Source: Pedobacter sp. Leaf216
Lineage (GTDB): Bacteria; Bacteroidota; Bacteroidia; Sphingobacteriales; Sphingobacteriaceae
Reading direction: 5' to 3'
NCBI RefSeq assembly: GCF_001421515.1
Contig: NZ_LMKM01000007.1
Span: 506,479-570,478 of the forward strand
DNA: 64,000 nucleotides
This document shows, piece after piece, positions 19,206 to 54,161 of this stretch (positions within the stretch are counted from its first letter, which is position 1; each line of letters starts with the position of its first letter). Position numbers and translations under genes: made by a program. The notes below the pieces were generated by a model. The model searched no databases. It had not been told where the DNA came from and was given only the letters and a program-made list of their open reading frames with translations.

Positions 19206-19261
19206 TTTAGGGTTTAGGGTTTAGGGTTTAGGGTTTAGGGTTTAGGGTTTAGGGTTTAGGG
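19206..19261. repeat. Perfect (TTTAGGG)8 simple-sequence tract
   Basis: Eight uninterrupted heptamers, 56 bp. Read on the minus strand it is (CCCTAAA)8 ending one base before the yjbR-like ATG, so it forms the leader of that gene. Perfect repeats of this kind can change copy number by slippage. Confidence 0.95.
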
Positions 19262-19375
19262 TAAAACCAAAGCTAATAACAAAAGTTTAAAGCTGAAAGC
19301 GAAAATGTCCGGAGTTGGGAGCCAGTAGTCCAATGCCTCTTCGGCCAGGCAAAGCATGAAGCAGATTATCCTGAA

Positions 19376-19474
19376 ATCTTAAAATCTTTCTTATCCTATT
19401 CCTGTTAGATCCTATAATCCTATAATCCTTTTTATCCTGATCCTTTTTTATCCTGATCCTTTCTATCCTATTCC
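19376..19474. repeat. Degenerate ATCCT-rich repeat before mnmD
   Basis: Imperfect runs of tatcctgatccttttt, ttatcctattcctg and cctataat units repeat for about 100 bp and end at the mnmD -7 box. Low-complexity repeat, no gene. Confidence 0.65.
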
Positions 19475-19482
19475 TATATTTG
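19475..19482 (+). promoter_or_regulatory. mnmD -7 promoter box
   Basis: TATATTTG fits TAnnTTTG, 34 bases before the mnmD ATG. No clear TTTG is found at -33 because that position falls in the ATCCT-rich repeat. Confidence 0.5.
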
Positions 19483-33519: not shown

Positions 33520-33610
33520 TTTTGCCTGTAAGTATGGGTTTATTTTTAGTTATTTTGCAAAACTTTAACGCGGGTAGTCACGTTATTTTTTAGAAACACA
33601 ACACTTTCAT

Positions 33611-34519
33611 ATGAAAATAGTTTTTATGGGTACGCCCGATTTCGCTGTAGCTTCTTTAGATGCTTTAGTTCAAGCCAATTTCGATGTAGTTGCAGTGGTT
33701 ACTGCTCCAGATAAACCTGCCGGCCGCGGACAGAAAATGAATGAAAGTGCTGTAAAAAAATATGCTGTAGAAAAAGGGATTCCTGTTCTGCAACCAGAAA
33801 AACTTAAAAACCCTGAGTTTATTGAAGAATTAAGGTCGTACCAGGCTGATTTACAAGTAGTGGTTGCCTTTAGAATGTTGCCTGTAGTGGTATGGAGCAT
33901 GCCTGCTAAAGGCACCATAAATTTACATGGTTCATTGTTACCTCAATATAGAGGGGCTGCACCAATTAACCATGCCATTATAAATGGTGAAAAAGAAAGT
34001 GGTGTAACTACCTTTTTTCTTAAGGAGGAAATTGATACCGGTGATATTATCCTTAGCGATAGTGTTGCCATTGCAGATAACGATACCGCTGGCGATTTAC
34101 ACGATAAACTGATGGTTATTGGAGCTAAACTTTTAGTAAAAACCCTACATGCAATTGAAGCAGGAGATGTAAACGAACAGCCGCAACCACAAAGCGGCGA
34201 ACTAAAACATGCACCTAAAATTTTTAAAGAAGACTGCAAAATTGATTGGAACAATACTGCACAGCGCATCCATAATTTAATTCGTGGTTTAAGTCCTTAC
34301 CCTACGGCTTTTACTCTACTAAACGATAAAAATTTAAAGGTATTTAAAGCAGAAATAGAAGATAAAGAACCTGGAATTGCCGCCGGTGGCTTTTTAACAG
34401 ATGGTAAAACTTACCTTAAGTTTGCTGCAAAAGATGGTTTTATAAATCTTCTGGATATTCAGTACGAAGGTAAGAAACGGATGTTGATTGAGGATTTTTT
34501 AAGGGGAATGCGGTTGTAA
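33611..34519 (+). CDS. fmt: Methionyl-tRNA formyltransferase
   Basis: The 302-residue enzyme formylates initiator Met-tRNA using 10-formyl-THF. Core catalytic residues Asn104 and His106 lie in GTINLHGSLLP, and Asp145 in EIDTGDIIL; the HGSLLPQYRGAAPI motif is diagnostic of Fmt. A C-terminal OB domain for tRNA binding completes it. No def gene is beside it. The start is supported by the usual MKIVFMGTPDFAV N-terminus. Confidence 0.96.
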   Translation: MKIVFMGTPDFAVASLDALVQANFDVVAVVTAPDKPAGRGQKMNESAVKKYAVEKGIPVLQPEKLKNPEFIEELRSYQADLQVVVAFRMLPVVVWSMPAKGTINLHGSLLPQYRGAAPINHAIINGEKESGVTTFFLKEEIDTGDIILSDSVAIADNDTAGDLHDKLMVIGAKLLVKTLHAIEAGDVNEQPQPQSGELKHAPKIFKEDCKIDWNNTAQRIHNLIRGLSPYPTAFTLLNDKNLKVFKAEIEDKEPGIAAGGFLTDGKTYLKFAAKDGFINLLDIQYEGKKRMLIEDFLRGMRL

Positions 34520-34545
34520 AGGTATTTGGCATTCGAAGGATTTTA

Positions 34546-34597
34546 ACCACAGATTTACAGCTCAGTTTGCCACGGAAACACAGAAAGCACGGAGGTA
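34546..34597. repeat. ACCACAGAT / CACAGAAAGCACGGAG repeat module
   Basis: The module reads taaccacagattta...cacggaaacacagaaagcacgg. Its reverse complement returns at about 53857-53911 and in part at 54059-54085, next to the other hairpin array. Related ACCACAGAT text is at 5151 and about 53500. Confidence 0.65.
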
Positions 34598-35190
34598 ACA
34601 TGATTTTAAGGAAATGAATATCCTTTGGGTATCGTCATTGCTGAGAAGGCTATTTTAGGCTATATCGTCCTCGTTTATAACGAGGATGTACGAGTAAAGC
34701 GATTCTATCGCTCCTAAAGGAATTATTTTCGCATTGCAAATGCGTACCTCTAAAATCCTCGTTACAAACGAGGACTATTTAAGTAAAAATCAATATAAGT
34801 GACATGATTTTAAGGAAATGAATATCCCTTGGGTATCGTCATTGCTGAGAAGGCTTTTTTAGGCTATATCGTCCTCGTTTGTAACGAGGATGTACGAGTA
34901 AAGCGATTCTATCGCTCCTAAAGGAATTATTTCGCATTGCAAATGCGTACCTCTAAAATCCTCGTTACAAACGAGGACTATTTGGGTAAAAATCAATATA
35001 AGTGACATGATTTTAAGGAAATGAATATCCTTTGGGTATCGTCATTGCTGAGAAGGCTTTTTCAGGCTATAACGTCCTCGTTTGTAACGAGGATGTACGA
35101 GTAAAGCGATTCTATTGCTCCTAAAGGAATATTTTCGCATTGCAAATGCGTACCTCTAAAATCCTCGTTTCAAACGAGGACTATTTAAGT
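34598..35190. repeat. Three tandem ~203-bp units rich in hairpins
   Basis: Units begin at 34598, 34802 and 35005 (period 204 and 203 bp) and share an acatgattttaaggaaatga start. Each has a left hairpin CCTCGTT-nnn-AACGAGG (first at 34669-34685), a second AGCGAT/ATCGCT hairpin, a third CGCATT/AATGCG hairpin and a right hairpin CCTCGTT-nnn-AACGAGG. The stems are invariant while the 3-base loops differ (tat, tgt, aca, tca). No open frame fits. It resembles a BIME-type array of REP elements; no RAYT transposase is in the window. Confidence 0.9.
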
Positions 35191-35313
35191 CAAGCAATTT
35201 ATCCTTAAGGTAATTAGCAGGAAAGATTGCTTCATCCCACGCAATAACGACCGCATTACTAAAGCCTGCTAATGGTAGCGGAGTAGAAGAGCAACCACTA
35301 ATGAACCAAAGAA

Positions 35314-36153
35314 CTAAATACCATTCAGCTTTTCGATCAAGAACTTCGAAACCTCATTGAAATAACGTTTCCTGCCGTAACCCATCACCCATTGAATGCC
35401 TTGTGTAGCATTGGTAATAAAAACTTCTTCTGCTTCTTTTAAAATTTCTGGATTAATCTGTGCTTCAACCAAAGGCATATCGTTCATTTTACACAATTGC
35501 ATAATCGCGGTACGCATCACTCCACTTACGCAACCTTCAGCCAATGATGGGGTATAAATCTGTTTATTATACACCACAAAAACATTGGCACTGATGCTTT
35601 CGCAAAGAAAACCATATTGGTTTAAAATCATTGCTTCATCCAAACGGTTTTGACTTTTAAAAATTCCGGCCATTACATAAAGCAGCGCATTGGATGTTTT
35701 AAAATTGGAGAGCTTGTTTACGGGTTTGGTTATCTCGTCGAACACATCAATGATCAAACCTTTGCTGTTTAACTCATATGTGGATGCTTTTAAGGGAATT
35801 CCCTCCAAAACATAACCTGCTTTATTAATTTCGGGGGTATAAACCCCTGCTCCGCCCCTGTAAACCGAAAGGCGAAAGCGTACATTGCCGTTCCATTTAT
35901 TTCTTTTGGTAAGATCGGCCGTTTTCTGGCGCAAAAAATAATCGTCCATAAGGGCATGACCGTCAATTTTCAACACTTTCATACCTGCAGTAAGCCTATC
36001 GGCGTGCAAATCGGCAAATTGCAGTTTATTATTGATCATGCGCATACTTTCGAACAGCCCGTCTCCAAATTTGAAACTTCTGTTCGAAGCTGTCAGAACA
36101 GGAGCATCTGCAGCATGAAATTCATCATTAAATATAAGGTACTCGTTAAGCAT
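35314..36153 (-). CDS. Class IV aminotransferase, probable aminodeoxychorismate lyase
   Basis: The 279-residue fold-type IV PLP enzyme has the start SFKFGDGLFESMR, the PLP Lys in LSNFKTSNALLYVMA and the phosphate-binding CESISANVFVV, then LAEGCVSGVMR. PabC (4-amino-4-deoxychorismate lyase), branched-chain aminotransferase and D-amino acid transaminase share this fold. Folate synthesis is favoured because a pabB-type gene is in the same window (62615), but it is not adjacent. It starts 3 bp after the rluD-like gene and is probably translated from the same message. Confidence 0.75.
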   Translation of the reverse strand: MLNEYLIFNDEFHAADAPVLTASNRSFKFGDGLFESMRMINNKLQFADLHADRLTAGMKVLKIDGHALMDDYFLRQKTADLTKRNKWNGNVRFRLSVYRGGAGVYTPEINKAGYVLEGIPLKASTYELNSKGLIIDVFDEITKPVNKLSNFKTSNALLYVMAGIFKSQNRLDEAMILNQYGFLCESISANVFVVYNKQIYTPSLAEGCVSGVMRTAIMQLCKMNDMPLVEAQINPEILKEAEEVFITNATQGIQWVMGYGRKRYFNEVSKFLIEKLNGI

Positions 36154-36156
36154 ATG

Positions 36157-37185
36157 TTATGATGTAACGATATAATTTTCCCATTTGGTTAAACCAGCTT
36201 TAAAATCGGGTGGCAAAGGGGATTCGAAGTACATGTATTCTTTTGTGGTTGGGTGGATAAAACCTAAACTTTGTGCATGTAATGCCTGGCGGGGCAATAA
36301 TTCAAAACAATTATCTACAAACTGCTTGTATTTATTAAACGTAGTTCCCTTTAAAATCTTATCGCCACCATACATGGCATCGTTAAATAAAGGATGGCCG
36401 ATGTGTTGCATGTGCGCCCTGATCTGGTGTGTGCGACCAGTTTCCAGCTCGCAACTAACCAAGGTTACGTAACCCAGGCGTTTTAACACTTTATAATGCG
36501 TTACAGACCATTTTCCTTTCTCTTCATCATCGTAAATATCCATCACACGGCGATCTTTCACACTTCGTCCGATGTAGCCCGTTACCGTGCCATCATTTTC
36601 GATATCGCCCCAAACCAGCGCAATATATTTACGGGTAATGCTGTGATCAAAAAACTGCCTGGCCAAATGCGTAATCGACTTTTCATTTTTACTGATGAGT
36701 AATAAACCTGAGGTATCTTTATCAATCCGGTGTACCAAACCTGGCCGGCCATCATTACCCGGTAGCTGGGGAAGTTGTTCAAAATGGAAGGCCAAAGCAT
36801 TAACCAGGGTTCCTGTATAATTGTTAAAGCCGGGGTGCACCACCATTCCGGCGGCTTTATTTACCACTAGGAGATCGCTATCTTCATAAATAATATCAAG
36901 CGGCAAATCTTCCGGGTAAACCTCCGTATCGCGTGGTGGATGAGGCAAAACAATAGAGATTTCATCAAAAGGTTTAACCTTATAGCTTGATTTTATCTGT
37001 TTTTGATTAACCAATACATTGCCTGCATCAATTGCATTCTGAATACGGTTACGCGAGGCATTTTCTACACGCACCATCAAAAATTTATCGATCCGAAGCA
37101 AAGATTGCCCCTTATCTACAATTATTTTGAGGTGTTCATATAATTCCTGCTCCTCTGATTCCTGCAATTCGACCACATTTTCCAT
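36157..37185 (-). CDS. RluA/RluD family 23S rRNA pseudouridine synthase
   Basis: The 342-residue protein has an N-terminal S4 RNA-binding domain (LRIDKFLMVRVENASRNRIQ) and the catalytic domain with Asp in GLVHRIDKDTSGLLLI, plus ELETGRTHQIRAHM. RluD-type enzymes modify helix 69 of 23S rRNA; this is the RluD-like branch by length and S4 domain. The open frame extends to 37269, but the ATG at 37185 is preferred because it is followed directly by the usual acidic N-terminus and because a -7 box lies at 37190-37197, inside the longer version. The next gene, an aminotransferase, starts 3 bp after its stop. Confidence 0.92.
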   Translation of the reverse strand: MENVVELQESEEQELYEHLKIIVDKGQSLLRIDKFLMVRVENASRNRIQNAIDAGNVLVNQKQIKSSYKVKPFDEISIVLPHPPRDTEVYPEDLPLDIIYEDSDLLVVNKAAGMVVHPGFNNYTGTLVNALAFHFEQLPQLPGNDGRPGLVHRIDKDTSGLLLISKNEKSITHLARQFFDHSITRKYIALVWGDIENDGTVTGYIGRSVKDRRVMDIYDDEEKGKWSVTHYKVLKRLGYVTLVSCELETGRTHQIRAHMQHIGHPLFNDAMYGGDKILKGTTFNKYKQFVDNCFELLPRQALHAQSLGFIHPTTKEYMYFESPLPPDFKAGLTKWENYIVTS

Positions 37186-39672: not shown

Positions 39673-39905
39673 GGTCGGCACCGGGCCTATTAAGTACCAA
39701 TGAGGGTGTAAAAGGGTCGGCACCGGGCCTATTAAGTACCAATGAGGGTGTAAAAGGGTCGGCACCGGGCCTATTAAGTACCAACAAGGGTGTAAAAGGG
39801 TCGGCACCGGGCCTATTAAGTACCAATGACGGTGTAAAAGGGTCGGCACCGGGCCTATTAAGTACCAACGAGGGTGAAAAAGGGTCGGCACCGGGTCTAA
39901 TAAGT
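39673..39905. repeat. 42-bp tandem repeat, five full copies and one partial
   Basis: Units start at 39673, 39715, 39757, 39799, 39841 and 39883, exactly 42 bp apart, with core ggtcggcaccgggcctatta. They are GC-rich against AT-rich flanks. Small differences between units are confined to the caatgagggtgt segment. The period is a multiple of three, so both minus-strand frames stay open by default, but no gene is supported. Confidence 0.92.
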
Positions 39906-39982
39906 AGCTTAGGGAATGTAATTGCAATTGGAATACTGTTAGAGAATTGTCAGTTAAAGTTAATACTTTCGAAAAACATCAT

Positions 39983-53373: not shown

Positions 53374-54161
53374 ATGATTAAGGCAGGGCTATAAACACTT
53401 CATTTTTAAAACATAAATTTTCTTAAGAAGCCCAAGACCTGTTCAAAAAATAAGTTTCTTCCCGTTTTACGCTTTCAATTTTATTAAGTTAAAAATTGTT
53501 AACCACAGATAGACACTGATAAACACAGATTTTTATACCTGTGTATATCCTTTTTACCTATGTTTAAAGTAGGATTGCCTTTTTATAGGGCTTAGCTTAA
53601 TGGCATTGGGTTAAAAGGCGCACTACCTTTGTTTATAAACCTGACAGCAGCGAGCATCCCGATTCTTCATCGGGATAAAGCAAATGGCAGGACTACAGCA
53701 CCTATGAAATGCTGACATTCGTTTCCTAAACCTAAAATCTTAAATAGTCCCACATTTGCAATGTAAAAATAATTCCTTTAAGAGCGATAAAATCGCTTTA
53801 CTCGTACATCCTCGTTACAAACGAGGACGATGTAGATGATCATCTATAAATTCTCCGTGCTTTCTGTGTTTCCGTAGCAAAAACCGACCTCTGTGTAAAT
53901 CTGTGGTTAAAGTTCTTAAGTAGTCCTCGTTTGTAACGAGGATTTTTGAGGTACGCATTTGCAATGCAAAAATAATTCCTTTAAGAGCGATAAAATCGCT
54001 TTACCCGTACATCCTCGTTACAAACGAGGACGATGTAGTATAATCATCTATAAATTCTCCGTGCTTTCTGTGTTTCCTTGGCAAAACCCATAAGTTCAGA
54101 TTGAAAAATATCTTTTATGATTTAGCACGTGTTCCGCTTAAACAAACGAAGTTTCCCCACC
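53374..54161. repeat. Large intergenic repeat region with second hairpin array
   Basis: No gene. Parts: ACCACAGAT/CACAGAT type text at about 53500-53560; a hairpin ATCCCGAT-tcttc-ATCGGGAT at 53656-53676; a partial array unit about 53750-53835 and a full unit about 53925-54035, both in the opposite orientation to those at 34598-35190, with CCTCGTT-nnn-AACGAGG hairpins at 53810-53826, 53925-53941 and 54013-54029; and the CACAGAAAGCACGG module (reverse complement) at about 53857-53911 and 54059-54085 between and after them. Confidence 0.88.

Follow-up and report, generated by a model that had tools for sequence, protein, structure and literature searches.

The three tandem units of ~203 bp at positions 34598-35190 of the window, by which we mean the whole 64,000-nucleotide stretch of Pedobacter sp. 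Leaf216 DNA that was analysed, are very probably REPINs of the REPIN-RAYT kind, with a RAYT partner in relatives that would account for their mobility. Open to direct observation are the structure of the element, its copy number, its position to either side of a RAYT gene in several relatives, the absence of that gene and the presence of a solo REPIN in the window's genome, and the tandem array itself. Rather than being an RNA particular to the neighbouring gene, the repeat belongs to a kind already known and forms a new family within it; it is a new example rather than a new kind because atypical flanks of subclass 2.6 genes in Bacteroidetes have already been described (PMC6006769). No earlier description of this Pedobacter repeat was found in the open-access literature, and a repeat previously undescribed there is now linked to a matching transposase in relatives.

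Tandem Repeats Finder places the array at 34598-35190 with a period of 203, 2.9 copies and 96% matches, bearing out the three ~203-bp units of the preliminary description, and its score of 1100 is the highest among the 11 rows obtained with that program for the window. The array lies between two convergent genes, fmt (+ strand, ending at 34519; the gene name is taken from the preliminary description) and a gene at 35314-36153 (- strand) that we take, from its sequence, to be aminotransferase-like, and it is non-coding as had been stated, in that none of the listed open reading frames of at least 80 aa overlaps it. Analysis of the spacer and of the repeat that hosts the REPIN shows each unit to be composite, with ~125 bp of REPIN joined to ~78 bp that belong to another dispersed repeat. 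The REPINs, delimited by an iterated nhmmer search and by the alignment described below (A1), are on the + strand at 34664-34778 (unit 1, including the tags ATCG and CTAT), 34868-34981 (unit 2) and 35071-35184 (unit 3). Another full REPIN, identified in the same way, is present in the window at 53920-54034 on the - strand, and a partial one adjoins it at 53746-53837 (- strand, iterated nhmmer).

Each REPIN consists of two inverted copies of a REP around a core of ~70 nt that holds two small hairpins, and the REP itself is an oriented hairpin of ~20 nt with the tag AT[C/A]G, the stem TCCTCGTT/AACGAGGA and the loop TGT. The left hairpins of the three units are on the + strand at 34669-34685 (loop TAT), 34873-34889 (TGT) and 35076-35092 (TGT), and the right ones, inverted and read on the - strand, at 34757-34773 (TGT), 34960-34976 (TGT) and 35163-35179 (TGA), so that the paired hairpins of one unit start 87-88 bp apart. 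All six CCTCGTT-nnn-AACGAGG stems are identical, as the preliminary description had it, and each exact 7-bp stem extends to 8 bp; the tags, in REP orientation, are ATCG and ATAG. The loops had been said to change (tat, tgt, aca, tca), but this is mostly an effect of strand: the two hairpins of a pair have opposite orientations, so that ACA in the second is the same loop as TGT, and in element orientation four of the six loops in the window are TGT. The same loop is found in 81 of the 89 exact-stem hairpins of the genome (37 + 44, element orientation), and in 49/59 left and 47/59 right hairpins of the aligned units, so that the loop of the main hairpin is itself conserved to a large extent. A caution of wider use is that an identical loop on the opposite strand looks changed when raw sequence is inspected.

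Conservation was assessed in alignment A1, which holds 59 of 64 full REPIN units collected from 10 genomes with an iterated profile on fetched loci; the paired, inverted REPs with a variable spacer between them are thus documented in 64 full units. A1 leaves out the units of loci L154 and L148 (long linker), that of L031 (the same place as L129), one unit of L044 that contains an N and a decayed unit of L080 upstream of a RAYT. Among the 35 rows from the window's own genome, the mean departure from the majority base is 0.021 for the tag, 0.032 for the stem and 0.029 for the loop of REP1, and 0.029, 0.025 and 0.057, respectively, for those of REP2, with linkers at 0.086-0.139. Among the 24 other rows, which comprise other species and the solo copy of the window's genome, the corresponding values are 0.044 for the stem versus 0.097 for the loop in REP1, 0.023 versus 0.097 in REP2, and 0.258-0.491 in the linkers, so across species the loops vary two to four times as much as the stems and far less than the linkers. 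The picture of invariant stems with changing loops therefore holds for the main hairpin in these 24 rows but is weak in the window's own genome, where the stem of REP1 decays as fast as its loop—a pattern that the preliminary description had named as evidence against its proposal, and one that is seen neither in REP2 nor in the internal hairpins nor across species. Since stem, loop and tag all vary less than the linkers, all three are conserved, as would be expected of the recognition site of a protein, although conservation of loop and tag could instead reflect a recent common origin of the copies.

Two further hairpins in each unit had been reported and are indeed present, namely hairpin B, AGCGAT-TCT-ATCGCT, at 34698-34712 (unit 1), 34902-34916 and 35105-35119, and hairpin A, CGCATT-GCA-AATGCG, at 34730-34744 (unit 1), 34933-34947 and 35136-35150. 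Their stems depart from the majority base less than their loops in the 35 own-genome rows (0.055 and 0.114 for stem and loop of hairpin B; 0.019 and 0.133 for those of hairpin A). Covariation over the copies, which the preliminary description had proposed as a check, is found in these hairpins: in A1, 96.9% of 1651 cells are paired, and 40 cells are changed on both sides compared with 11.0 +/- 2.4 in shuffles, none of 500 of which reached as many. An A-U/G-C swap in hairpin B (columns 36-50) occurs in 15/59 aligned copies and a G-C/A-U swap in hairpin A (columns 85-98) in 17/59, and most of the paired changes (17 cells for pair 85-98 and 15 for pair 36-50) may go back to a few events inherited by many copies. 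The U-for-C change said to keep pairing by G-U is one C-to-T substitution, seen in unit 3 (AGCGAT..ATTGCT), and does so on the + strand only, giving an A-C mismatch on the other strand. Selection on the folded form, which had been proposed from these observations, is supported, as constraint on a folded form, by the paired changes of the internal hairpins and by stems that vary less than linkers; the contrast between stem and loop of the main hairpin is weak in the window's genome.

Folding of unit 2 gives z-scores of -9.7 (+ strand) and -9.8 as DNA and of -8.8/-9.7 as RNA for the two strands, with none of 200 shuffles as good; the unit folds as one long stem of both REPs, 21 bp, with two hairpins inside, and the RNAalifold consensus agrees in that the two REPs pair (15 of 25 consensus pairs). 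In the alignment, local folding into two hairpins and formation of a single long stem are nearly equal alternatives, with 96.9% versus 96.4% of cells paired; paired changes inside the REPs are spread over 3 pairs under the first fold and 2 under the second. That the element flanks a RAYT gene in relatives suggests that the folded form which matters is single-stranded DNA.

It is very improbable that the element is instead a structured RNA of the fmt 3' region that affects RNA stability or decay, a role that the preliminary description had suggested. The strength of the RNA fold, the compensatory changes in the internal hairpins and the fact that 26 of the 27 REPIN places of the genome adjoin the 3' end of one gene or more speak for such a role, and so may the slightly higher number of G-T than of A-C pairs on the + strand (31 versus 16 over all helices, binomial 0.04, and 21 versus 8 in the REPs, binomial 0.02, in rows that are not independent). 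However, none of the loci of the neighbouring aminotransferase gene in 18 relatives carries a REPIN (no match with E <0.1), and in the eight of these in which the whole gap between fmt and the aminotransferase gene is readable it is short or holds other sequences, and no REPIN. Because of this absence from all 18, nothing points to a conserved role at fmt, which argues against the proposed effect on RNA decay, as does the occurrence of the element at 27 places in one genome. A role as a terminator was likewise rejected, with no terminator-like site on either strand, and a search of 33600-36200 against Rfam at a lax threshold gave eight matches, the best with E 0.08 and all below gathering scores.

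The distribution of the element is that of a dispersed, mainly intergenic repeat. The window's genome contains 89 exact-stem hairpins (CCTCGTTNNNAACGAGG sites), compared with none for a reversed control, and 82 of them fall within 27 REPIN places, which include the solo REPIN and exclude 13 fetched places with the spacer repeat alone. None of the 27 is inside a called open reading frame (by a rough rule for calling them), and 16 are between convergent, 10 between co-directional and 1 between divergent genes, which resembles the placement of REPs. BLAST of the whole 593-bp stretch gave 109 matches in its own genome, some of them to the spacer repeat alone. The full units from this genome number 38 rows, or 37 once one place that was read twice is removed, and nine of the 18 places with full units hold at least two of them.

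This clustering bears on how the family has grown. Units are more alike within arrays (identity 0.933, 33 pairs) than between arrays (0.855, 633 pairs), with the identity within an array exceeding its best match in another array in just five of nine arrays. Spacers are repeated along with the unit in most arrays and mostly differ between arrays, as expected from local tandem duplication; two arrays have a spacer in common, which is itself a repeat. According to the published REPIN model, tandem REPINs are frequent, and local amplification or deletion of REPINs is probably the work of the host's replication machinery (PMC8049555). The high number of hairpins in the window's genome comes partly from local tandem duplication.

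The duplicated segment in the window is a REPIN nested in the second dispersed repeat. This repeat is ~190 bp long, contains CGTCATTGCGAG...GACGAAGCAATC and is represented in the window by 34598-34659 plus 35188-35290; we take it to resemble CGTC-type REPs. Its left part (ACATGATTTTAAGG..TATCGTCATTGC..GGC, + strand, 34598-34659) recurs in units 2 and 3 and is the 78-bp spacer, and its right part (..AAGCAAT..GATTGCTTC..CGCAATAACGACCGC.., + strand, 35188-35290 with approximate ends) was matched by eye to other copies. REPIN-free copies are present at 13 other fetched places (L013-L016, L018, L019, L021, L022, L034, L037, L039, L041 and L042). The REPIN of the window lies between ..TTTCAGGC and GTCAAGCAAT.., where REPIN-free copies read ..TTTCAGCCGACGAAGCAAT.. 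(by eye), and no target duplication was seen around it in this comparison by eye. Neither an empty and filled pair with a clean junction nor a target duplication was found among the loci compared, a point against the REPIN-RAYT reading. A stretch just upstream of the array, 34540-34597 (AACCACAGATTTACA..CCACGGAAACACAGAAAGCACGGAG), recurs in the spacers of the REPIN arrays L003 and L005.

Evidence for the REPIN-RAYT kind comes from relatives, in which a whole or partial REPIN flanks a RAYT gene of ~181 aa on both sides at a single locus in all eight genomes examined. The Y1_Tnp genes of 60 genomes of the genus, including the window's own (G000), were compared with hairpin positions among the matches listed, and a weak Y1_Tnp match lay, among those matches, amid the hairpins of G031 and G011; the other four of six loci read were chosen by a similar RAYT match together with hairpin number. 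The gene is broken at one of the six (G041) and at a seventh, in G020, and the REPINs flanking it at the six loci include the internal hairpins. Four further regions were picked from hairpin positions alone, and in one of these (G132) a RAYT 88% identical was found at the same locus with hairpins ~800 bp apart. The other three, in other genera (G148, G083 and G072), hold REPIN-like matches and no such RAYT in those regions, which counts against the proposed partnership. Against NCBIfam NF047646, "REP-associated tyrosine transposase", the RAYT protein reaches 98.4 bits (cut-off 80), and against Pfam Y1_Tnp 23.1 (cut-off 23). A PDB sequence search gave two matches that are not meaningful (E 0.44 and 0.71), and the predicted fold, with a mean pLDDT of 50.5, was too weak for a fold search and offers no structural confirmation.

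The clade of this RAYT (at least 79% identity) is present in 7 of the 60 genomes, intact in 5 and broken in 2, so that a matching RAYT accompanies the repeat in these seven and in G132. Records of the clade, at seven loci, belong to P. ginsenosidimutans, P. borealis, P. terrae, P. alluvionis, Pedobacter sp. Bi126 and two MAGs, one labelled Pedobacter sp. and one Sphingobacteriaceae; the last two of the named species were left out of the hairpin examination. At least 12 hairpins are found in 7/7 genomes with the clade versus 2/53 without it (Fisher 9.3e-8; Mann-Whitney on the counts, 2.3e-7, 60 genomes) and, among the 19 closest genomes, in 7/7 versus 2/12 (7e-4), with a cut of 12 that was set after the counts were seen and statistics that ignore shared descent. 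The two exceptions are the window's genome and G049, which has 18 hairpins and lacks both a RAYT of the clade and a REPIN at the locus. RAYTs less closely related (31-54% identity) were scanned at 23 loci outside the clade and have other hairpins or none detected, such as TGCGCTCGTT..AACGAGCGCA in G052, G048 and G027 (with near variants too in G027 and G052) and GGTCGGGATT..AATCCCGACC in G042, while six of the 23 have no hairpin on either side by the scan rule. Distant RAYTs with other hairpins fit co-evolution of RAYT and REP.

This association also bears on whether the element might be a MITE of the classical type, mobilised by a DDE transposase and bounded by terminal inverted repeats of ~20 bp that are palindromic by chance. 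Its short, non-coding form with inverted ends is compatible with a MITE, and so is the occurrence in another genus (L196) of a longer variant whose hairpins start ~260 bp apart. The reading is nevertheless highly improbable, since the flanked RAYT at one locus in eight genomes, the tags outside the hairpin and the lack of a target duplication by eye all fit a tyrosine (HUH) enzyme better. The longer element at L196 (G148, another genus of the family) has the same end hairpins, and several such repeats occur within 4.3 kb between small open reading frames.

The REPIN-RAYT reading has to accommodate the fact, which counts against it, that the genome with the most hairpins has no RAYT of the clade. 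There are 89 hairpins in the window's genome versus 12-34 in the seven RAYT-bearing genomes of the genus, and its matches to the RAYT are 40% (the closest) and 33% identical. E. coli genomes with a RAYT carry more REPINs (PMC8049555), which makes the window's genome unusual; however, some E. coli genomes have REPINs and no RAYT (PMC8049555), and the absence of the gene here is therefore compatible with membership of the REPIN class. Four Y1_Tnp genes of the window's genome (G000:C12:520143, C33:170170, C33:139262 and C12:456949; L046-L049) were considered as partners and rejected, since each has other hairpins alongside by eye. Those beside the 40%-identical match are different ones by eye, and the strict scan rule lists none there. 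The repeats beside the four genes are, by eye, of the CACACGCGG type, GTCAGATG-TTAC-CATCTGAC, ACCTCGCAGGT..ACCTGCGAGGT and GTTCCGTAGGAAC, so that one genome appears to hold several RAYT/REP-like pairs.

At the orthologous locus, the window's genome has a single decayed REPIN with 5/32 stem positions changed, a decay level with that of the most decayed rows of A1, including the unit beside the broken RAYT of G020. Thirty loci were read among the 58 genomes that matched, the acyltransferase neighbour not being found in 4/30. Of the 23 RAYT-less loci, four have a whole or partial REPIN, namely those of the window's genome, G052, G027 (half) and G005 (partial), and that of G043 has a weak REPIN match only. 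The solo copy would be most simply explained by loss of the RAYT through recombination between the REPINs on its two sides. The REPIN of G005 could mean that a REPIN preceded the RAYT there; G005 looks more distant, with locus neighbours 90% and 74% identical. Genomes with an intact RAYT, with a broken one, with a solo REPIN at its locus and with a large population of REPINs but no RAYT together form a natural series for asking what keeps REPINs in a genome.

A plausible course of events is that REPs fold when their strand becomes single-stranded, for example on the lagging strand, and that the RAYT would cut at the foot of the REP and copy the element to a new intergenic site. Ancestors of the window's genome probably carried the matching RAYT between the acyltransferase-like and phosphoribosyltransferase-like genes, and would then have lost it by recombination between the flanking REPINs, leaving the one decayed copy. 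Downstream of fmt, a REPIN would have entered the second dispersed repeat and the pair of REPIN and host repeat would then have multiplied in tandem, probably by ordinary recombination or slippage, the order of these events being our reconstruction. Stems, loops and tags of the REPINs are nearly intact in the RAYT-free genome of the window. One might speculate that an orphan REPIN population has outlived its transposase and still grows, whether by tandem amplification of composites of REPIN and host repeat, through a benefit to the host or by a non-matching RAYT acting in trans, but we regard this as unlikely.

Among known systems, the REPIN-RAYT systems described in PMC8049555 share with the Pedobacter element the inverted pair of oriented REPs, the non-coding nature, intergenic dispersal, tandem clusters and a matching RAYT at a stable locus, here in relatives. 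They differ in that the Pedobacter element has no GTAG foot, has two extra internal hairpins and reaches its highest number, among the genomes sampled, in one without a RAYT. The GTAG or GTGG that marks the stem foot of GTAG REPs is replaced here by the tags ATCG and ATAG. E. coli BIMEs, as presented in PMC8266576, similarly consist of a REP and an inverted REP with a linker and are often in tandem; their REPs have GTAG and a bulge, in contrast to the perfect 8-bp stem and TGT loop found here.

Two of three motifs make the partner itself look like TnpA_REP subclass 2.6 (Bertels group 5). Atypical structures that lack GT[AG]G flank the genes of that subclass in Bacteroidetes and have copies elsewhere in the genome (PMC6006769). 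The Pedobacter RAYT agrees with the description given there in host phylum, in its length of ~180 aa, in flanks of this type and in motifs of the NHIH, WQ and YIH-NP form. NHIH and WQ are present, whereas the third motif, in a comparison made by motifs, is YIHDNP/YIHENP where subclass 2.6 has YIH[QN]NP, so that its fourth residue is D or E instead of Q or N. The main text of PMC6006769 gave no match for Pedobacter.

That the repeats are CGTC-tagged REPs without a dedicated transposase is extremely improbable: such repeats are listed in Bacteroidetes and have CGTC before one of two palindromes (Di Nocera et al., 2013; PMC3733652), as does the left REP here, but the right REP, in its own orientation, has AGTC, the tag's T and C are paired with the opposite side of the stem, the loops are of 3 nt against the 4 or 5 nt described there, the stems lack the AT start of that class, and relatives possess a dedicated RAYT.

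Two other tandem repeats of the window may be recorded, one at 39673-39906 with a 42-bp period (5.6 copies, 94% matches) and one at 19206-19262 composed of 8.1 error-free copies of TTTAGGG, after which other short repeats follow at 19366-19475.
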